Positions 1,420-18,192 of a DNA stretch of 64,000 nt are shown one piece after another. Origin of the DNA: Pedobacter deserti (GTDB taxonomy: Bacteria; Bacteroidota; Bacteroidia; Sphingobacteriales; Sphingobacteriaceae); the NCBI RefSeq assembly GCF_024436415.1, contig NZ_JAFMZQ010000001.1:1612001-1676000 (forward strand). The letters run 5' to 3'. The notes under the pieces are model-generated. The model made no database searches and was not told where the DNA came from. It saw only the letters and a program-made list of their open reading frames with translations. Both the position numbers and the translations under genes were made by a program. How positions within the stretch are numbered: position 1 is the first letter of the stretch; each line of letters opens with the position of its first letter.

Positions 1420-2324
1420 CGCAGCCTTGTGTTGAGCATGTCGATGATGAGATCGGTTTGATGGGGATTAAACCAAATGATCTCCTGATCCTTTCTGAAC
1501 CAGGTCAGTTGCCGTTTTGCGAAGCGCCTGGTATTTTGTTTGATCTTGTCAACCGCATCCTCGAATGACATCTGGTGGTCTAGATAGTCAAATAGCTCGG
1601 TATAACCTACAGTGTTCAAAGCGTTGTATCCTCTATAATGCGCCAGGTTTCTAACTTCTTCGAGCAGGCCGGCAGAGATCATCAGATCCACTCTTTTATT
1701 GATTCGCTCATAGAGTTTATTACGGTCCATATCGAGACCAATTTTTACAATATTGAAGGGTCTGGACTTTTTCGTATTCGTTTGAAATGAGGAGAGTTTT
1801 TTGCCTGTTGATAAAAAGAATTCCAGCCCCCTGATGATGCGCTGTGGGTTTGACTGATCAACTTTCTGATGATACTCCGGATCGCAAACCCTCAGTTTCT
1901 CCCTGATTCCTTCAAGTCCAAGGTCGGCTAGCTCCTGATTTAGTTGAGCTCTGATTTCCAAATCTGTCGCCGGAAGATCATCTAAGCCCCGTGTAACCGA
2001 ATCAATATAGAGGCCAGACCCGCCCACCATAATCAAAATATCTTTGGTAAGAAATAAGCGCTCCATAAGCGCCAGTGCCGATACTTCAAAATCGCCAGTA
2101 CTGAACAGCTCTGTAATGCTATGAGAATTGATAAAATGATGAGGTGCTGCAGCTAGCTCTTCGTTTGATGGCTTCGCCGTACCGATACTCATTTCCCGGT
2201 AAAACTGCCGGGAATCTGCAGAAACAATTTCGGTGGCGTAAAAATTTGCGAGTTGAATGGCCAGTGCAGTTTTACCAATTGCGGTAGGCCCTACAACGAC
2301 AACAAGTGTTTTTTTAGTGTCCAT
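1416..2324 (-). CDS. miaA: tRNA dimethylallyltransferase
   Basis: MiaA transfers a dimethylallyl group to A37 of tRNAs that read UNN codons. The protein starts MDTKKTLVVVVGPTAIGKTA with the P-loop GPTAIGKT, followed by the SADSRQFY substrate motif and the late KQNTRRFAKRQLTWFRK motif. The chosen start at 2324 gives 302 residues, normal for the family; the frame is open further upstream but that part overlaps the preceding gene and has no family similarity. It lies 7 bp downstream of the pRiA4b ORF-3-like gene, so the two are probably co-transcribed. Confidence 0.95.
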   Translation of the reverse strand: MDTKKTLVVVVGPTAIGKTALAIQLANFYATEIVSADSRQFYREMSIGTAKPSNEELAAAPHHFINSHSITELFSTGDFEVSALALMERLFLTKDILIMVGGSGLYIDSVTRGLDDLPATDLEIRAQLNQELADLGLEGIREKLRVCDPEYHQKVDQSNPQRIIRGLEFFLSTGKKLSSFQTNTKKSRPFNIVKIGLDMDRNKLYERINKRVDLMISAGLLEEVRNLAHYRGYNALNTVGYTELFDYLDHQMSFEDAVDKIKQNTRRFAKRQLTWFRKDQEIIWFNPHQTDLIIDMLNTRLR

Positions 2325-2331
2325 AGGAGGA

Positions 2332-2982
2332 CTAATAATCGTCCTCCCCGCTGTTGTTGTAGTCCTCTTCTTCGTAATTTTCATTATCTGAAAACTCGTC
2401 GTCTTCAGCTTCGTCGCTTTCGTCAGATTTATCTTCAGTATTGATCCCTCTTCCGTCCATCGCTTCGAGTTCCTCAGTATCTTCCGGGATGAAATCCATC
2501 TCATTCAGGAAATCAAAATCCGAAGAGGTTGTGCTGGCAGACATCGCAACTGTACCAAGATTGTTCTTATCAATGATCTTCGGTGCTTCACCTGTGCTCT
2601 TGATAAGCACCGGATATTCAATATTCGGGTCAGTCTCCAGTATGATTTTAATGAGTTCTACATGAAAGTCGAAAGGCCTGTCAAAATCGTAGATATAATA
2701 GAACTTTTGATGCGGGTCCTCAATGAAATTACTCAGTTTTGATTTCTCCATTGATGCCACTCCACGATCGATTTTCCGCTGGCTGGGCATAAAGGCAATC
2801 TCGTCACCCTTGATCCAATTGTCTGTACTCACAAAAAAGGAAGATGATTTTTCGGCAGCATATCCAGTAGATCTGTGGATTGCCCGGTGAAGATCCTCAA
2901 ATGTTTGATTTGATTTAATATCTATTTCCCGTACTACTTCATCGAAATCTTCGAAACTAACTCTGAATCTGTAAATTGCCAT
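2332..2982 (-). CDS. Plasmid pRiA4b ORF-3-like (IS1096 passenger TnpR-like) family protein
   Basis: A 216-residue soluble protein. The first 135 or so residues (MAIYRFRVSFEDFDEVVREI, a central FYYIYDFDRPFDFHVEL and later PNIEYPVLIKSTGEAP) resemble the pRiA4b ORF-3-like fold. The family was named from mobile elements but is common as a stand-alone chromosomal protein in Bacteroidetes, and no transposase or terminal repeat is seen here. The last 50 residues are very acidic (runs of D and E with S and N) and look disordered. The function is unknown. It is just upstream of miaA on the same strand. Confidence 0.7.
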   Translation of the reverse strand: MAIYRFRVSFEDFDEVVREIDIKSNQTFEDLHRAIHRSTGYAAEKSSSFFVSTDNWIKGDEIAFMPSQRKIDRGVASMEKSKLSNFIEDPHQKFYYIYDFDRPFDFHVELIKIILETDPNIEYPVLIKSTGEAPKIIDKNNLGTVAMSASTTSSDFDFLNEMDFIPEDTEELEAMDGRGINTEDKSDESDEAEDDEFSDNENYEEEDYNNSGEDDY

Positions 2983-3027
2983 TTGTGGTTGTTTTCAAGC
3001 TGTAAAATTAAAATAAAATTATACTTT

Positions 3028-4446
3028 CTACAATTTGTTGGTGCGAGATACTGGTACCAAGCCTATTTTTTTGCCCTCCTGCAGCATGAATTGCAATGCA
3101 TCCTCGTAAGTATTTGTGATGTCGCCCTCAAGAATTGCTTCCCTGATTGCTTTCTTTATGATTCCCACTTCCCTGCCTTCCTTAAGTCCGAACACCTGCA
3201 TGATGTCATTGCCCGTTATGGGCGGTTGCCAATTACGAATTTTGTCTCTTTCTTCGACGTCTACCAGCTTTTGCTTAACGAGTTCGAAATTCTTGCGATA
3301 CTTCTTGATCTTATATTCATTCTTTGTGGTGATATCAGCGTTGCAAAGCTTCATCAGACTCTCAATATCTTCACCTGCATCAAACAGAAGTCGCCTTACA
3401 GCTGAGTCGGTAACCACCTCTTGCGCCAGGACAATGGGCCGGAGATGTAATTGAACAAGTTTTTGAACGAACTTCATCTTTTCATTAAGAGGAAGCTTCA
3501 ACTGTGCAAATATGTGCGGGACCATTCGCGCACCTTTGTCTTCATGCCCGTGGAAAGTCCAGCCCTGGCCCTTCTCGAACCGCTTAGTGGCGGGCTTTGC
3601 GATGTCATGAAGAATTGCAGCCCAGCGCAGCCATAAATCGTCTGTAGTGGCGGCTATATTGTCCAGAACCTGCAGTGTGTGATAAAAGTTATCTTTGTGA
3701 CCTTTATTATCAATGATATCTACTCCATGCAAGTTCGCCATTTGCGGGAATATAATGTGCAGCAGGCCGGAGTTGAAGAGATGCTTAAAGCCAACAGACG
3801 GTTTTGCGGAGAGAATAATTTTATTCAGCTCGTCGGTGATTCGTTCTTTTGACACGATCGTTATCCGTTCTTTATGGAGCTTGATTGCGTCCAGGGCAGT
3901 CTGATCAATTGTGAAGCCTAACTGGCTGGCGAATCGGATAGCACGGAGCATACGCAGCGGATCGTCGGAAAACGTGATTTCAGGATCCTGAGGCGTTCGG
4001 ATCAGCTTGCTTTTTAAATCCGAAATTCCATTGAATGGGTCGACGAGCTTACCGAAATTGTCTCCGTTAAGCGCGAATGCAAGCGCGTTTATTGTAAAAT
4101 CACGTCGTAACTGATCGTCTTCAATGGAACCATTCTCAACAATGGGCTTGCGTGAATCAGTGCGATACGACTCTTTTCTTGCCCCAACGAATTCTATGTC
4201 AAGGTCGTTAAATCTTAGCATTGCCGTACCAAAGTTTTTAAACACGGATACACGTGTATTTAATTCAATGCCAACAAGCTCCGCAAATTCAATTCCATTT
4301 CCCAAGACAACCACATCAATATCCTTCGACGGTCTTTTCAGGAATATATCGCGGACGTAGCCTCCAACTACGTATGCCTCAATAGACTTACGATCTGCTA
4401 TTGATGCGAGTATTTTAAAGACCGGATTCTCTAGATGATATTTCAT
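3028..4446 (-). CDS. cca: CCA tRNA nucleotidyltransferase with HD domain
   Basis: Adds or repairs the 3'-CCA end of tRNAs. The N-terminal nucleotidyltransferase head shows YVVGGYVRD followed by a DIDVVVLG metal-binding segment, then the [10 protein letters not shown] and [17 protein letters not shown] motifs of class II enzymes. A C-terminal HD domain ([13 protein letters not shown], and HGHEDKGA) suggests extra phosphohydrolase activity, as in bacterial CCA-HD proteins. I choose the ATG at 4446 (472 residues); a TTG seven codons upstream is the alternative. It is probably part of the minus-strand run from dapD to miaA. A poly(A) polymerase role is the main alternative. Confidence 0.92.
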
Positions 4447-4470
4447 GACGAGGAGCAAAAGTAGCAAAAC

Positions 4471-5037
4471 TTACCTTCTGATAAAGGAAAATTGCCCTCC
4501 GGCGCCCAATTTTACTATGGTAGAAGGCTTTTTATGAACACTCAATTCCTGCTCCCGGTCTACGACATGATCAACGGCCGATTTGATCTGCTCATCTATC
4601 TCGTTAAAAAAAGCAGGAGTAGGCAACCCGGCTAAATTCGCTGATGTAGAGACGATAGGTTTTCGAAATCTTTGTATGAGCTGGGTGCAAAAGTCGTGTT
4701 TCACAATCCGGATTCCGACGCTTCCATCTTTGTTTATCACGTTTTCGGCTAAGTTTCTTGCTCCTGAAAATATTACCGTGAGCGGTCTTTCAGCGTATTC
4801 TATCAAATCGTATGCAACCTCAGGTACCTCAGAAACATAGCTTTGTAATTTGTTGACTGTATCTAGTAAAATGATAAAACTTTTGTCCTCAGGGCGTCCC
4901 TTTATCTTATTGATTTTTGCAACAGCTTCAGCATTCGTTGCATCGCAACCAATTCCCCAAACCGTATCAGTGGGATACAGGAGTACGCCTCCACTTTTCA
5001 ATACATTTAAAGCTATTTCAATTTCAGATTTTAACAT
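4471..5037 (-). CDS. tsaC: L-threonylcarbamoyladenylate synthase (Sua5/YrdC/TsaC type)
   Basis: Makes threonylcarbamoyl-AMP from threonine, bicarbonate and ATP, the first step of t6A37 formation in ANN-decoding tRNAs. Visible motifs are GGVLLYPTDTVWGIGCDA, KIKGRPEDKSFIILL, a DGSVGIRIVKH stretch and PIVSTSANLAG. At 188 residues it is a bare YrdC domain without the Sua5 C-terminal domain. The start at 5037 overlaps the end of the upstream glycosyltransferase gene by 14 bp, which argues for co-transcription. It lies next to cca and near miaA. Confidence 0.92.
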   Translation of the reverse strand: MLKSEIEIALNVLKSGGVLLYPTDTVWGIGCDATNAEAVAKINKIKGRPEDKSFIILLDTVNKLQSYVSEVPEVAYDLIEYAERPLTVIFSGARNLAENVINKDGSVGIRIVKHDFCTQLIQRFRKPIVSTSANLAGLPTPAFFNEIDEQIKSAVDHVVDREQELSVHKKPSTIVKLGAGGQFSFIRR

Positions 5038-6172
5038 GGCTCTGGTGTTTGTATTTGGCCGCCGCAATGGCATAGATATTCATCAGATCGTTAGCTATTA
5101 TTTGATTGTTAAATCGCTGGGCGAAATCCAAACCTTTCGATGACATCTCTTTACGGAGTTCAGCTGAACGCAATACGTTGTTTATTGCCGACGAGAGTGC
5201 TTTCTCGTCCCGGGGGTCGACATAGATACTGTTTGGTCCGCCTGCTTCTTCCAGGCAGGATCCTTTTGCTGCGATAACAGGTATGCCAGAGAACAGTGCT
5301 TCGATAATTGGAATTCCAAACCCTTCGTACAGGGAGGGATACACAAATAATTCAGCAAGCTGGTAAATGGAGGGAAGATCTGCAAACGACACATCCTGAA
5401 GAAATAGCACGCTGTCTTGCAAACCCAAAAGTTCTATTTCTTTAAGCACATCCTTATAGTAAACTGTTTGCCTGCCTATCACAACGAGTTTGATCGGCGG
5501 TTCTACCAAGGGCAATGCCTTTATCAAGATTTTTAAATTTTTTCGCTCTTCTATGGTGCCTACACAAAGGATAAACTGCTTGGGTAAACGATACTTCCTA
5601 AGGGCATTTTGCTTTGATTCATCCGTGGCAACCCTCTTGAAAGAGTCGTCGCAACTTTGGTAAACCACGTCAATTTTTTCGGGTCGTACATTAAAGTGGC
5701 TGACTATATCCCGCTTCGTACATTCACTAATTGCTACAATACGGTCGGCGTTACGACAGGCATACCGACATTTCCATGTATATATCCATCGGTCGACGGT
5801 ATTGAAGTACTGCGGGAATTTCAGGAATATAAGGTCGTGGATGGTAACAACCGATGCAATCCCCACTTTGTTCAGTCCGATTGGCAGCTCGTGGCTCAGT
5901 CCGTGGAACACGGATACCCCCTCCGAAACAAGATTTTTTTTAATGTGAAGTAAGCGCCACATTGGCCCTGCGGATGGCGGGTTGACCACCGTGAGCCCGT
6001 CAGCGTTTAGGAAGCGAGCGATTTGCGGATGATCTTTAATTTTGGGGGTATACAGGAAGTACTGGTTTTGAGGGAAATGCTCAATCAAACCTGAGATTAA
6101 CGAGCGACTGTAGTTTCCTAGTCCGGTTAAATTATTTGCCGCCCTTTTCCCATCAAAACCAATACTTATCAT
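5024..6172 (-). CDS. Glycosyltransferase family 4 (GT-B fold)
   Basis: A 382-residue soluble enzyme. It begins with a glycine-rich MISIGFDGKRAANNLTGLGN, has an FILCVGTIEERKNLKILIKA hinge segment and the retaining GT-B signature YPSLYEGFGIPIIEAL, with the paired glutamates that bind the nucleotide-sugar. It probably transfers a hexose during polysaccharide or glycolipid synthesis, but acceptor and donor cannot be read from the sequence. It sits between dapD (stop 1 bp away) and tsaC (14 bp overlap), an odd place for an envelope enzyme, and no other polysaccharide genes are adjacent. Confidence 0.85.
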   Translation of the reverse strand: MISIGFDGKRAANNLTGLGNYSRSLISGLIEHFPQNQYFLYTPKIKDHPQIARFLNADGLTVVNPPSAGPMWRLLHIKKNLVSEGVSVFHGLSHELPIGLNKVGIASVVTIHDLIFLKFPQYFNTVDRWIYTWKCRYACRNADRIVAISECTKRDIVSHFNVRPEKIDVVYQSCDDSFKRVATDESKQNALRKYRLPKQFILCVGTIEERKNLKILIKALPLVEPPIKLVVIGRQTVYYKDVLKEIELLGLQDSVLFLQDVSFADLPSIYQLAELFVYPSLYEGFGIPIIEALFSGIPVIAAKGSCLEEAGGPNSIYVDPRDEKALSSAINNVLRSAELRKEMSSKGLDFAQRFNNQIIANDLMNIYAIAAAKYKHQSHVKI

Positions 6173-13764: not shown

Positions 13765-16700
13765 ATGTATTTGATTTTTGATACGGAAACGACAGGTTTG
13801 CCCAGGAACTGGAACGCGCCGATTACTGATACTGATAACTGGCCGAGGTGTATACAGATTGCCTGGCAGCTGCATGATGATTTTGGAGCGCTCATTGAGA
13901 ATCAGGATTTTCTTGTTAAGCCGGACGGATTTAATATTCCGTACGATGCTGAGCGTATCCATGGTATATGTACAGAACTCGCTCAAGAGCAGGGTGCTGA
14001 TTTAAAAGAGGTACTCATCAAATTTAATGAGTCACTTTCCAAAGCAAGTTTCGTGGTTGGTCAAAATATTGGTTTTGATATAAATATCATGGGCTGTGAG
14101 TTTTTCAGGCTGGGCATGGAGAGTCCGCTTTCACAGTTGCCGGTTCTCGATACCTGTACGGAATCTACAGCTGAATTAATTAAGCTGCCAGGAGGGCGCG
14201 GGGGAAAGTTCAAACTACCCAATCTTACTGAACTTCATCAGTACCTTTTTGGTGAGCCGTTTGCTGAAGCGCACAATGCCACTGCAGATGTTGAGGCAAC
14301 TTCGAGATGTTTTCTTCAATTAATCGCAATAGGGGCGTTCAAGCCCGAAGAACTAAGAAAGGACGTTGAATATCTGAGGAGGTTTAAAGAGCAAAATCCT
14401 GGACTAATTAACTGTGTGGGCCTCAAGCACGTGAATCTTAAAGCGGCTTCTGAAGATATCAGGAAGCGTTTAGGGAGATCGGCTGATGGTGTTTCCAGGC
14501 AAGTAGACAAAGAAGCTCAAGAGAGACTTAAAACGGCTGTTTTTGCTCACCTCCATAATCATACACAGTTTTCTGTGTTGCAGTCTACAACCAATATCCC
14601 CGCCTTAATAAAAGCTGCAGCTGCCATGAAGATGCCGGCAGTAGCTATGACAGACCATGCGAATATGATGGGTGCTTTTCATTTCGTAAGTCAGGTACTG
14701 AACCACAACAAAGCTGCTGAGGCCAAAAATGCTGCCGCTGTAGATAACGGCGAGCCTGCGACTGAAACGATTATAAAGCCGATAGTTGGCTGCGAATTTT
14801 TCGTATGCGACGATCATACCGATAAGAAGAGGAAGGATGACGGGTACCAGGTTGTCTTTTTAGCAAAAAACAAAAATGGCTACCATAATCTGGCCAAGAT
14901 GTCCTCAATCGCCTACACAAAGGGATTCTATTATGTTCCTCGAATCGATCGACATATTATTGAGCAGTATAAAGAAGACATTATTGTCCTTTCCGGTAGT
15001 CTTTATGGTGAAGTATCGAGTAAGTTGCTGAATATAGGAGAGAGGCAGGCGGAGGAGTCATTGTTGTGGTGGAAGTCTGTGTTTGGAGAAGACTTCTATA
15101 TAGAGATCATGCGTCATAATCAGGATGACGAAAATATTGTGAACGCATCACTGATATCGCTGGCTAGAAAGCATGAAATTAAATTGATTGCTACCAACAA
15201 CACCTACTATATCAGTAAAAAGGACGCCAATGCACACGATATTCTTTTGTGTGTTAAAGATGGAGAGAAGCAGGCAACTCAGATAGGCAGGGGACGGGGG
15301 TTCCGTTACGGGCTACCTAATCAGGAATATTATTTCAAGTCTTCAGATGAAATGAAGGTGCTCTTTTCTGACCTTCCTGAAGCTATAACAAATATTCAGG
15401 AGGTAATTGATAAGATAGAGACATACAAGCTGGCCCGCGAGGTGTTGTTACCTAAGTTCGATATCCCACAGGAATTTGTAGTTGCAGAAGATGATACAGA
15501 TGGTGGTAAGAGGGGTGAAAATAAGTATCTCAAACATCTGACCTATGAAGGTGCCAGGCGCAGATATGGAGAACTTTCTCCAGACATCATAGAAAGACTG
15601 GATTTCGAGTTGCATACCATTGAGAAGACGGGGTATCCGGGCTATTTTCTGATTGTTCAGGATTTTATCGCTGAGGCAAGGAAGCTTGATGTTTCGGTAG
15701 GGCCGGGGCGGGGTTCTGCCGCAGGATCTGTAGTTGCCTATTGTCTCGGGATTACAAACATAGATCCGATCAAGTACGATCTTCTTTTTGAGCGTTTCCT
15801 CAACCCCGACCGGGTGTCAATGCCGGATATTGATATTGACTTCGACGACGAGGGCCGCGGAAGGGTAATGGATTATGTGATTAGGAAATATGGAGCTAAT
15901 CAGGTTGCCCAGATCATTACTTACGGAACTATGGCTGCGAAGTCGTCTATCCGGGATACAGCCAGGGTACTTGATCTACCCTTATATGAGGCTGACAAAA
16001 TTGCGAAGCTGATACCGAACATGAAGTTGGCGAAGATCTTCAGTTTGGAGGAAAAAGCTTTGAAGGAGGCATTGCGTGCAGACGAATATGAGAAGGTTTC
16101 GGAGCTTAAGAGTATGGCCTCCGCTAAAAATCTGAGCGCCGAGACTATTCTTCAGGCTCAGGTATTGGAAGGCTCGCTCCGGAATACGGGGATACATGCC
16201 TGCGGTGTTATCATAACGCCAGATGATATTACCAATTTTGTACCGGTGGCAACTGCCAAGGACTCGGACCTGTATGTGACGCAGTTTGATAACTCGGTAG
16301 TAGAAAGTGCCGGCCTCCTGAAAATGGACTTTTTAGGGCTTAAAACGCTTACCCTCATTAAGGACACCGTTAAGCTTGTGAAACAGGGCCAGGGGATAGA
16401 GCTTGACCCGGATAGGTTCCCTATTGATGATGTAAAAACATATGAGTTGTTTCAACGCGGAGAAACCATAGGCATATTTCAATATGAAAGCAGTGGAATG
16501 CAGAAATACATGAAGGAGCTAAAGCCCACGGTGTTTGGCGACCTGATCGCTATGAATGCGCTCTACAGACCAGGGCCGCTTGAATACATACCGAGTTTTG
16601 TAAGACGTAAGAATGGTGAGGAAGAGATTAAGTATGATCTTGAAGCTTGTGAAGAATACCTAAAGGAAACTTACGGAATTACGGTCTACCAGGAACAGGT

Positions 16701-18192
16701 TATGCTTTTGTCGCAAAAGCTCGCGGGTTTTACAAAAGGTGAAGCAGACGTGTTACGGAAAGCGATGGGTAAAAAGCAAAAGGATGTCCTTGATAAAATG
16801 AAACCCAAGTTCATTTCACAAGCGGCAGAGAAGGGGCATGACGCTGTGATCCTTGAGAAAATTTGGAAAGACTGGGAAGCCTTCGCCTCCTATGCGTTTA
16901 ATAAGTCGCACTCCACATGTTATGCCTGGATTGCCTACCAGACTGCCTACTTGAAGGCACACTACCCCGCCGAGTACATGGCGGCAGTGCTATCAAACAA
17001 CATGACCGACATAAAGCAGGTAGCATTCTTCATGGAGGAATGCAAACAAATGGGAGTATCTGTGTTGGGCCCTGACGTGAATGAATCGGATATTAAATTT
17101 TCAGTGAATGCAAATGGCCAGGTCCGGTTCGGGTTATCGGGGATAAAAGGTGTAGGTGAAAAGGCGGTAGAAAGTATCATAGAAGAGCGTGTTGCTCATG
17201 GCCCGTATAAGAGCGTTTATGATTTCGCTAAACGATCCAACACGCGTACTGTCAATAAAAAAGCCTATGAAAGCTTTGTTTATAGTGGTGCGTTAGACGG
17301 CTTCGGATATCATCGTGCGCAGTACTTCTTTGTCGGTGTCAACGACAAGATGAACGGCATTGAAAAGATGATCAAATATGCCAATGACTTCCAAAACAAC
17401 GAGTCTTCGTCTCAATCGTCGCTTTTTGGAGGTTCCGTAGCGAATCTTATTCTGGAACCTTCTCTACCTGTAGCGCCGGAATGGAGTTTAATTGACCGTC
17501 TGAAATATGAAAAGGATTCGATTGGGATCTTTTTGAGTGGACACCCCCTTGATAATTACAGGCTCGAACTTAATGAGTTTTGCCAGCACAAAGTTAAGCA
17601 TCTGGCGCTGGTCAGTAAAATAAGATCCGGCGACAGCAACGAAGAACTTGTTGCAGAATTTGATTCGATCAAGAATCGGGAACTTGTAGTGGGTGGACTT
17701 GTCGTGGCCTCTTCACAGCGGATGACAAAGACTGGTAAACCTTTTGGTACAATCGTGTTTGAGGATTACGACGACACGTGCGAACTTGCTCTTTTTGGAG
17801 ACGATTTTATCAAGTTCAAGCAATTTCTTACAGAGGGGTATTTTCTTCAGATACGGGGTAGGGTCGCTGAGCGGTTTAGAAAGGAGGGCGACTGGGAATT
17901 CAAGATTACCGCTATAAATCTGCTGTCAGAAATAAGAGACAAGCTCGCGAAATGTGTGACTATTCAGGTGCCTCTTGAGCGGGTTACAGACGACTTCATG
18001 CGTCAGATAAACGACATTTTAGAAATTAATAGGGCAGAAACCGAACACCAGAGTTGTCAGCTGTTATTTGATATATACGACAGTGAGCAAAGTGTAAATA
18101 TTAAAATGCCATCTAAAACAATGAAAATAAATCCAAATAACCGGCTCCTAGAACAATTGATTCAACTCGATGTTAATCCTAAGTTGAACTAA
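13765..18192 (+). CDS. dnaE: DNA polymerase III alpha subunit fused to an N-terminal DEDDh exonuclease
   Basis: Replicative polymerase of 1475 residues, about 300 longer than an ordinary DnaE. Residues 1-190 form a DnaQ-like exonuclease: Exo I FDTETTG, Exo II NIGFDINI, Exo III HNATADVEA (DEDDh type). A PHP domain starts near residue 260 (HLHNHTQFSVLQS, AMTDHANM). The C-family polymerase follows with GPGRGSAAGSVVAYCL, the catalytic PDIDIDFDDEGRG, then a tandem HhH region (GLSGIKGVGEKA) and an OB fold. Several PHP metal ligands are replaced (see findings). Proofreading is therefore probably in cis through the N-terminal domain. The ATG at 13765 is chosen over an upstream TTG at 13759. Confidence 0.95.
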   Translation: MYLIFDTETTGLPRNWNAPITDTDNWPRCIQIAWQLHDDFGALIENQDFLVKPDGFNIPYDAERIHGICTELAQEQGADLKEVLIKFNESLSKASFVVGQNIGFDINIMGCEFFRLGMESPLSQLPVLDTCTESTAELIKLPGGRGGKFKLPNLTELHQYLFGEPFAEAHNATADVEATSRCFLQLIAIGAFKPEELRKDVEYLRRFKEQNPGLINCVGLKHVNLKAASEDIRKRLGRSADGVSRQVDKEAQERLKTAVFAHLHNHTQFSVLQSTTNIPALIKAAAAMKMPAVAMTDHANMMGAFHFVSQVLNHNKAAEAKNAAAVDNGEPATETIIKPIVGCEFFVCDDHTDKKRKDDGYQVVFLAKNKNGYHNLAKMSSIAYTKGFYYVPRIDRHIIEQYKEDIIVLSGSLYGEVSSKLLNIGERQAEESLLWWKSVFGEDFYIEIMRHNQDDENIVNASLISLARKHEIKLIATNNTYYISKKDANAHDILLCVKDGEKQATQIGRGRGFRYGLPNQEYYFKSSDEMKVLFSDLPEAITNIQEVIDKIETYKLAREVLLPKFDIPQEFVVAEDDTDGGKRGENKYLKHLTYEGARRRYGELSPDIIERLDFELHTIEKTGYPGYFLIVQDFIAEARKLDVSVGPGRGSAAGSVVAYCLGITNIDPIKYDLLFERFLNPDRVSMPDIDIDFDDEGRGRVMDYVIRKYGANQVAQIITYGTMAAKSSIRDTARVLDLPLYEADKIAKLIPNMKLAKIFSLEEKALKEALRADEYEKVSELKSMASAKNLSAETILQAQVLEGSLRNTGIHACGVIITPDDITNFVPVATAKDSDLYVTQFDNSVVESAGLLKMDFLGLKTLTLIKDTVKLVKQGQGIELDPDRFPIDDVKTYELFQRGETIGIFQYESSGMQKYMKELKPTVFGDLIAMNALYRPGPLEYIPSFVRRKNGEEEIKYDLEACEEYLKETYGITVYQEQVMLLSQKLAGFTKGEADVLRKAMGKKQKDVLDKMKPKFISQAAEKGHDAVILEKIWKDWEAFASYAFNKSHSTCYAWIAYQTAYLKAHYPAEYMAAVLSNNMTDIKQVAFFMEECKQMGVSVLGPDVNESDIKFSVNANGQVRFGLSGIKGVGEKAVESIIEERVAHGPYKSVYDFAKRSNTRTVNKKAYESFVYSGALDGFGYHRAQYFFVGVNDKMNGIEKMIKYANDFQNNESSSQSSLFGGSVANLILEPSLPVAPEWSLIDRLKYEKDSIGIFLSGHPLDNYRLELNEFCQHKVKHLALVSKIRSGDSNEELVAEFDSIKNRELVVGGLVVASSQRMTKTGKPFGTIVFEDYDDTCELALFGDDFIKFKQFLTEGYFLQIRGRVAERFRKEGDWEFKITAINLLSEIRDKLAKCVTIQVPLERVTDDFMRQINDILEINRAETEHQSCQLLFDIYDSEQSVNIKMPSKTMKINPNNRLLEQLIQLDVNPKLN

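Follow-up and report, generated by a model that had tools for sequence, protein, structure and literature searches.

Which part of a replicative DNA polymerase corrects its errors, and from which lineage did that part come? The question is raised by dnaE1 of Pedobacter deserti (Sphingobacteriaceae), which we studied within a window of 64,000 nucleotides, that is, the whole stretch of DNA analysed here (NCBI RefSeq assembly GCF_024436415.1, contig NZ_JAFMZQ010000001.1, positions 1,612,001 to 1,676,000 of the forward strand). The gene occupies window positions 13765 to 18192 on the plus strand, stop codon included, and its open reading frame (ORF), together with Pfam and NCBIfam matches, identifies its product as a DNA polymerase III alpha subunit of 1475 amino acids (aa) with an N-terminal exonuclease. 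Taken together, our analysis makes it very likely that this DnaE1 proofreads in cis by its DEDDh exonuclease, that its PHP (polymerase and histidinol phosphatase) domain serves a structural role only, and that the gene is chimeric.

In Bacteroidetes DnaE1, Timinskas et al. (2013, PMC3919608) described an exonuclease that a linker of ~60 residues connects to the N-terminus of PHP; their accessible text places the fused exonuclease in Bacteroidetes only and describes the PHP metal site as variable in the phylum. Most DnaE1-only bacteria are reported to have one candidate proofreader, PHP or DnaQ, an inactive PHP being complemented by an intrinsic or separate DnaQ (PMC12926913). Hence, going by the accessible text of these two papers, the fusion and the either-PHP-or-DnaQ rule are already in print, and what the initial annotation of this locus had singled out, a fused exonuclease ahead of a decayed PHP site, is known. 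The window's protein is like the published fused DnaE1 in that its exonuclease lies N-terminal to PHP, with the linker at ~191-258. Unlike in the accessible text of PMC3919608, fusion and PHP loss are tabulated against each other here, with a link that is strict in our sample, and the gene looks mosaic; unlike in that of PMC12926913, gene chimeras and a standalone exonuclease (family f33 below) are described.

Domain architecture and the PHP metal site

The ORF runs from an ATG at 13765 to 18192 with zero internal stops; an alternative TTG start lies 6 bases upstream, and 15 aligned fused relatives begin at the ATG methionine. Pfam recovers the order RNase_T (residues 3-181; 44.1 bits, E 4e-11, far above chance), PHP (from 262 to 451), DNA_pol3_alpha, finger, HHH_6 (1097-1186) and OB (1310-1387), which confirms a DnaE with a DEDDh exonuclease fused ahead of PHP, as initially annotated. 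This is the order of a DnaE1-type alpha subunit (PHP, polymerase core, tandem helix-hairpin-helix or (HhH)2, OB); the protein scores 1235 bits with NF004226 (DNA polymerase III subunit alpha, cut-off 1002) vs. 250.7 bits with the PolC model NF001688 (cut-off 873), and it falls below the error-prone cut-offs as well. No model among the Pfam results matched the extreme C-terminal domain.

The exonuclease domain (residues 1-190, 13765 to 14334) has the complete DEDDh set claimed for it at the outset, namely D6, E8, D105, H170 and D175, all kept in 145/145 aligned fused exonuclease domains, 80 of which were fetched by patterns holding some of these residues. An AlphaFold2 model of residues 1-558 was built from 48 fused sequences (mean predicted local distance difference test score, pLDDT, 88.7; predicted template modelling score, pTM, 0.81). 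By Foldseek, the exonuclease portion of the model resembles DnaQ domains, among them that of E. coli epsilon (1j53, TM-score 0.81 by target length), and the PHP portion resembles DnaE of Thermus, E. coli and M. tuberculosis; such a fit of a predicted model says nothing about activity. The linker (residues 191-258, 14335 to 14538) is modelled with helices at 201-210, 225-236 and 249-257 and carries a motif near GLKHVNLK common to the fused proteins shown of families f1, f4 and f6, where f1 is the window's family, Sphingobacteriaceae, and f4 is Flavobacteriaceae.

The PHP domain (residues 259-555, 14539 to 15429; Pfam and Thermus alignment) has a degenerate metal site. The nine ligands follow PMC12926913 (HHDHEH[C/H]DH), with positions taken from an alignment to Thermus aquaticus DnaE, which reads HHDHEHCDH vs. 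HHQHEQSNY in the window's protein, i.e., 5/9 changed. Retained are H264 and H266 (H14 and H16 of M. tuberculosis DnaE1; 14554 to 14562), H298 (H48; 14656 to 14658) and E344 (E73; 14794 to 14796); lost are the Asp at Q273 (D23; 14581 to 14583), the His at Q362 (H107; 14848 to 14850), the Cys at S412 (C158; 14998 to 15000), and the Asp and His at N479 and Y481 (D226 and H228; 15199 to 15207). The initial annotation had put the changes at four or more: its four hold, but it missed Q362, and the His of MRHNQ that it counted as a retained ligand (H451, invariant across 48 fused proteins) lies outside the nine. The loop that holds Q273 (270-274) is modelled with pLDDT < 50. With five ligands changed, the domain departs from the nine-ligand site of PHP-exonuclease proofreaders of the M. 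tuberculosis/Thermus type. In M. tuberculosis DnaE1, D23N or D226N alone abolishes PHP exonuclease activity (PMC5636811); the window's protein has Q and N at the equivalent positions, and judging from these substitutions its PHP domain should be without exonuclease activity.

The genome encodes two polymerases of this family, the dnaE1 product and a second DnaE, encoded by an open frame of 1106 aa; its PHP start is very different, and this, with its length, leads us to take it for the error-prone DnaE2. RNase_T has three matches in the assembly (95.3% complete), namely dnaE1, a 467-aa and a 321-aa open frame. Since none of the genome's other RNase_T matches resembles a dedicated epsilon-like subunit (at this level of completeness), the strongest candidate for a proofreader is the fused domain. 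In the alpha-epsilon complex of E. coli a dead PHP domain is kept as structure and a DEDDh exonuclease proofreads; there the exonuclease is a separate subunit, whereas in the window's DnaE1 it is covalently linked. The E. coli PHP has 5/9 ligands altered (PMC5636811). PolC of Gram-positive bacteria, like the window's DnaE1, has a DEDDh-type exonuclease within the polymerase, but its exonuclease lies inside PHP and its OB is N-terminal, vs. an exonuclease before PHP and a C-terminal OB here; the two fusions are described as unrelated events (PMC3919608).

Fusion and PHP decay across Bacteroidota

Our phylum sample comprised 395 genomes spread evenly, of which at least 392 had a match. DnaE1 was read from 169 genomes, the window's included, hand-chosen to span families and heavy in f4; the counts leave out L095 (genome G280; match from residue 436, PHP cut) and L006 (the window copy). 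All five DEDDh residues were present in 65/65 fused proteins and an intact PHP site in 0/65, vs. an intact site in 94/104 unfused ones, a joint distribution in line with what the initial annotation had proposed. Within f1 the site was changed in 46/46 fused rows and intact in 19/19 unfused rows, and the unfused relatives in f24, a family of another class, kept all nine ligands in 6/6 cases. Named contig loci (the best 80 of 328 confirmed, some genomes shared with the survey) gave the same picture: 79 reach PHP, L271 (contig end) being left out, and 79/79 are changed. The substitutes are themselves conserved among the 65 fused proteins: D23 is replaced by Q in 59, H107 by Q in 61 and D226 by N in 58, while Y/F stands for H228 and N/S/G for C158 in 65/65.

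The 10 non-intact unfused proteins are L115 (f4), that of genome G109 (f33; this genome also carries a standalone exonuclease) and eight proteins of f16, f18 and f29 that, by inference from their sequences, look like Chlorobi. At L115 (genome G198) the exonuclease is encoded by an immediately upstream ORF at 5270-5884 (204 aa) and the rest of DnaE, with a decayed PHP, by one at 1498-5316 (1272 aa), both on the minus strand and overlapping by 47 bases in different frames; this could be a natural split, a frameshift or a sequencing error. Several DnaE matches of f16, f18 and f29 break near residue 830-844, which may be the 28-residue insert reported for Chlorobi DnaE (PMC1887533). Four other DnaE open frames (L088, L090, L091 and L060; genomes G309, G183, G179 and G030) measure ~1605-1626 aa, with ~400 extra residues, possibly inteins, between matched pieces near 1001 or 1048.

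Probable mosaic ancestry of dnaE1

The window's family contains both types of gene. Of its 121 genomes, 119 match; match start and open-frame length class 53 of these as fused and 62 as unfused, leaving 4 that are too short to assign, and each genus is uniformly fused or unfused wherever classifiable. No genome with both a fused and an unfused DnaE1 was found among the matches listed, in which second matches are 32-36% identical. RpoB trees unite the fused and unfused genera of f1 (Shimodaira-Hasegawa-like approximate likelihood ratio test, SH-aLRT, 100 in one tree and 99 in another), whereas for the DnaE polymerase core forcing f1 together costs 235 log units (approximately unbiased test, p-AU 5e-41). 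The core conflicts with RpoB because the identity profile switches along the gene. Segments of 60 residues between 259 and 1118 give the window's genus 59-94% identity to Flavobacterium vs. 32-77% to unfused f1, Flavobacterium being closer in each; in those from 1099 to the end, unfused f1 is closer in each, although in the last by one point only (e.g., 61 vs. 45% at 1139-1198 and 51 vs. 28% at 1339-1398). Nine 45-residue segments spanning 1110-1394 put the window's protein at 42-69% identity to unfused f1 and 21-54% to Flavobacterium, while Flavobacterium and unfused f1 share only 19-57%, below the values of the window's protein with unfused f1.

Tree tests tell the same two stories. For residues 259-1110, grouping the window's protein with unfused f1 is rejected by 475 log units (p-AU 2e-66); for residues 1115-1475, grouping it with Flavobacteriaceae is rejected by 29 log units (p-AU 0.014), and it forms a clade with unfused f1 (support 100/98). 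These tests leave out the Sphingobacterium and Parapedobacter rows, in which the junction lies elsewhere. In the trees the N-terminal part nests within Flavobacteriaceae, near Flavobacterium. The conflicting trees along the gene show, at the level of sequence, residues 1 to ~1110 to be of Flavobacteriaceae type and ~1115-1475 to be native to Sphingobacteriaceae. That is, most of dnaE1 seems to derive from a flavobacterium, with the bacterium's own tail end attached. The putative recombination junction, placed by sliding identity at residues 1094-1125 (17044 to 17139; best estimate 1114-1117), separates the Flavobacteriaceae-type polymerase core (DNA_pol3_alpha plus finger, residues 587-1024, 15523 to 16836; Pfam, sliding identity and trees) from the apparently native C-terminal part (17140 to 18189; identity and trees), which comprises most of HhH, the clamp-binding motif, OB and the C-terminal region. 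The putative clamp-binding motif, QSSLF, follows (HhH)2 at residues 1217-1221 (17413 to 17427) and has the QxxLF form given in PMC3919608.

The junction differs among genera. It lies at ~1085-1132 in the window's own genus (g1), at ~1139-1166 in 4/5 genomes of g204, and at ~1202-1242, around the clamp-binding motif, in g194 (with Parapedobacter), g207 and g2 (with Sphingobacterium); no junction was seen in g206 (4/4 read) or in the fifth g204 genome, G471, which are of Flavobacteriaceae type through to the end. The RpoB data reject a single clade of fused f1 genera (p-AU 2e-8) and require three or more changes of state. A thioredoxin-like ORF, identified by motif search, lies 31-162 bases after dnaE in 18/20 fused f1 loci vs. 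621-913 bases after it in 3/6 unfused ones, and is near dnaE in 6/14 f4 loci; its position fits, weakly, an in-place replacement of dnaE.

Under the model we favor, the DEDDh exonuclease at the N-terminus of DnaE1 would do in cis the proofreading that falls to a separate epsilon in E. coli, and the PHP domain, with five of nine ligands lost, would persist as a structural element of the enzyme. The exonuclease, PHP and polymerase core would have come from the Flavobacteriaceae type, presumably in that direction, and the clamp-binding motif, OB and C-terminal regions would be native, perhaps kept for contact with the host's own clamp and tau. Acquisition of the N-terminal part would therefore have switched proofreading from PHP to DEDDh in one step.

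Probable mosaics in other families

Family f24 likewise has both fused and unfused genera. Its fused exonucleases group with other fused ones (94/87); 26 fused PHP domains, those of f24 included, form one clade (100/98, with ligands and the 3 residues on either side removed); and uniting the fused with the unfused proteins of f24 is rejected for the PHP domain (p-AU 4e-9). At residues 560-845 a native origin of the f24 fused proteins is rejected (p-AU 0.03) and their union with other fused proteins is neither recovered nor rejected (p-AU 0.56), whereas at residues 860-1190 they are native, with the neighboring families f22 and f43, and grouping with other fused proteins is rejected by 248 log units. 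The junction falls at residue 849 (838-863) in 7/7 fused proteins tested. Independent fusions in f24 and in the window's class, to which a polymerase-core tree rejecting one fused clade had pointed (p-AU 8e-6), were set aside in view of the exonuclease and PHP trees and the mosaic at 849. Independent fusions of closely related exonucleases may still have taken place, since linkers differ between groups and the exonuclease clade (94/87) is not starred.

Two other sets of proteins deserve mention. Three f5 proteins (L136, L137 and L138) have a polymerase core that goes with fused proteins and an intact PHP domain that goes with unfused ones, possibly a reverse N-terminal exchange. The fused DnaE of L134 and L135 (f8; g14 and g27) fall among the unfused proteins of their class at residues 860-1190 (support 88) and may be a further mosaic.

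Standalone relatives of the exonuclease

Family f33, which belongs to another class and is represented by 54 genomes, has a standalone relative of the exonuclease (43-49% identity over the main piece); its carriers are three g96 genomes, four g187 genomes and a single genome of g177. PHP sites could be read for 50 f33 genomes (G400, G410 and G413 left out; G160, intact and with no relative, read separately; G419, where a 498-aa frame contains a 32% match, scored as a non-carrier): they were intact in 43/43 non-carriers and decayed in 6/7 carriers, namely 4/4 in g187 (QHDNDRSDH) and 2/2 in g96 (NHE[SN]R[HA]GNH). The exception is the g177 genome G403 (76% complete), which carries the relative with an intact PHP. 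The correlation has a Fisher p of 4e-7, a value that ignores relatedness, and involves 2-3 independent pairs, too few for a sign test to be practicable. The standalone copies of g96 and g187 group together (98/97), with a tail longer than in the G403 and G024 copies; a single clade of the two genera is not rejected (p-AU 0.27). These patterns suggest that in f33 an exonuclease accompanied PHP loss a second time, independently and in trans, and the family's standalone exonuclease is a candidate proofreader for some PHP-dead bacteria.

The same role was considered for standalone relatives elsewhere and set aside: 1/29 and 8/80 genomes searched (ten listed genomes being left out of the search with the exonuclease alone) match at E 1e-8, and f5, G024 and G403 do not fit. 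Three f5 copies (L180 at 1501-2085, L181 and L182) have FDTT or FDTS for FDTE next to an intact PHP, the two shown in full also being without the final DEDDh His, and may be pseudo-enzymes. In G024 (f18), L179 (1516-2082) is a short standalone relative of 189 aa, 44% identical and with the tail missing; a copy of this type was not found in the six other f18 genomes searched and may be mobile. A phage or plasmid donor of the exonuclease was likewise rejected: all 154 phage and 10 plasmid records are <60% identical (best listed, 35-39%), and the three phage and four plasmid copies placed in the tree fall outside the fused exonuclease clade.

Combining these results, we lean towards the view that the DEDDh exonuclease, the dead PHP domain and part or all of the core form an exchangeable cassette in Bacteroidota that would have had one fusion origin and spread by recombination across orders and classes, with several junctions and the native tail usually kept, and that a standalone version replaced PHP in g96 and g187 of f33.

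Alternative explanations

Several observations weigh against the chimeric, cis-proofreading model. In a finer, separately aligned scan, the last segment (1440-1475) is 37% identical to Flavobacterium and 30% to unfused f1. One clade of all fused proteins is not rejected for 1240-1475 alone (p-AU 0.18) or for 1115-1236 alone (p-AU 0.096); the C-terminal part gives weaker tree signal than the N-terminal part, and short pieces are less powerful. The junctions were picked after viewing the identity profiles. In DnaE 1-1080 the fused f1 proteins fall at two places inside Flavobacteriaceae, one clade not being rejected (p-AU 0.16). Moreover, a single clade unites the fused exonucleases (94/87, not starred; 95/90 in a second tree) and another the fused PHP domains (100/98). 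Few independent origins therefore lie behind the correlation, perhaps just one besides f33, and 65/65 is not 65 events. The results for 1440-1475 and for 1240-1475, together with the drop of C-terminal identity in the groups compared, are what would be expected if the switch were produced by rapid evolution or misalignment of the C-terminal part and the whole gene were of Flavobacteriaceae type. However, all nine 45-residue segments between 1110 and 1394 favor unfused f1, residues 1115-1475 place the window's protein with unfused f1 at 100/98, and g206 and G471, with a Flavobacteriaceae-type tail to the end, act as a built-in control; we already regard an artefact as very unlikely. Mixed ancestry along the gene would also be accounted for without transfer, by an ancestral duplication, differential loss of fused and unfused dnaE1 copies and gene conversion at the C-terminus, and temporary co-existence of native and fused copies is required in most models anyway. 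Against this stand the nesting of the N-terminal part inside Flavobacteriaceae near Flavobacterium, the lack of any f1 genome with both types among the matches listed, and the many parallel losses that would be required, and we find it improbable.

The order of events is a separate matter. PHP may have decayed first under relaxed selection, as in the Chlorobi-like proteins, with the exonuclease fused later to restore fidelity. The Chlorobi-like DnaE1 (L059, L061-L065, L093 and L094 of f16, f18 and f29) are unfused and have a changed PHP in 8/8, and PHP loss is thus possible without a cis exonuclease; that unfused homologues share PHP changes speaks against the initial annotation, but their substitutions, at 1-5 ligands, are unlike the fused type (f29 reads HHSHEHCDH, one change, in 3/3). 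A search reported in PMC12926913 found no canonical DnaQ in Chlorobi and a few others, and intact-PHP proteins among the 65 fused number zero. On the other side, unfused or exonuclease-less relatives keep all nine ligands (6/6 in f24, 19/19 in f1, 43/43 in f33), and the sole fused-type pattern among 104 unfused proteins is L115, with its exonuclease in the adjacent ORF; we judge decay first to be rather unlikely. Some nuclease or structural metal role might also persist if PHP still bound metal through H264, H266, H298 and E344. Fused proteins keep H16 in 65/65, E73 in 64/65 and H14 in 62/65, and D226N leaves the metal content unchanged in M. tuberculosis (PMC5636811); yet His 48 is retained in just 22/65, and five ligands are lost, including the equivalents of D23 and D226, each essential for activity in that protein, and hence residual metal binding seems to us doubtful at best. 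We therefore favor, as the best reading of these sequences, that proofreading passed to the DEDDh exonuclease, after which PHP could decay freely. For the initial proposal that the exonuclease replaced PHP proofreading, the strict co-distribution and the f33 co-occurrence argue in favor, while causation and order do not follow from them.

Implications for replisome evolution

Our search of the literature on dnaE transfer and mosaicism, which covered few subscription papers, found no report of a native-tail mosaic, of genus-specific junctions or of the f33 standalone exonuclease, and the accessible text of PMC3919608 mentions gene transfer for DnaE2 and phages only. The families studied here bear on how freely the replisome can be exchanged. 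Because a replicative polymerase has to fit the replisome, its transfer is usually deemed difficult. In the present case, the part that proofreads and catalyses appears to have been exchanged between orders, while the tail expected to meet the clamp and its loader remained native; every swap would have substituted one proofreading chemistry for another. The f33 standalone exonuclease offers a concrete candidate where PHP is dead and no DnaQ is recognised. Further, matched pairs of PHP- and DEDDh-proofreading bacteria within one family would make mutation rate and spectrum comparable between the two chemistries.

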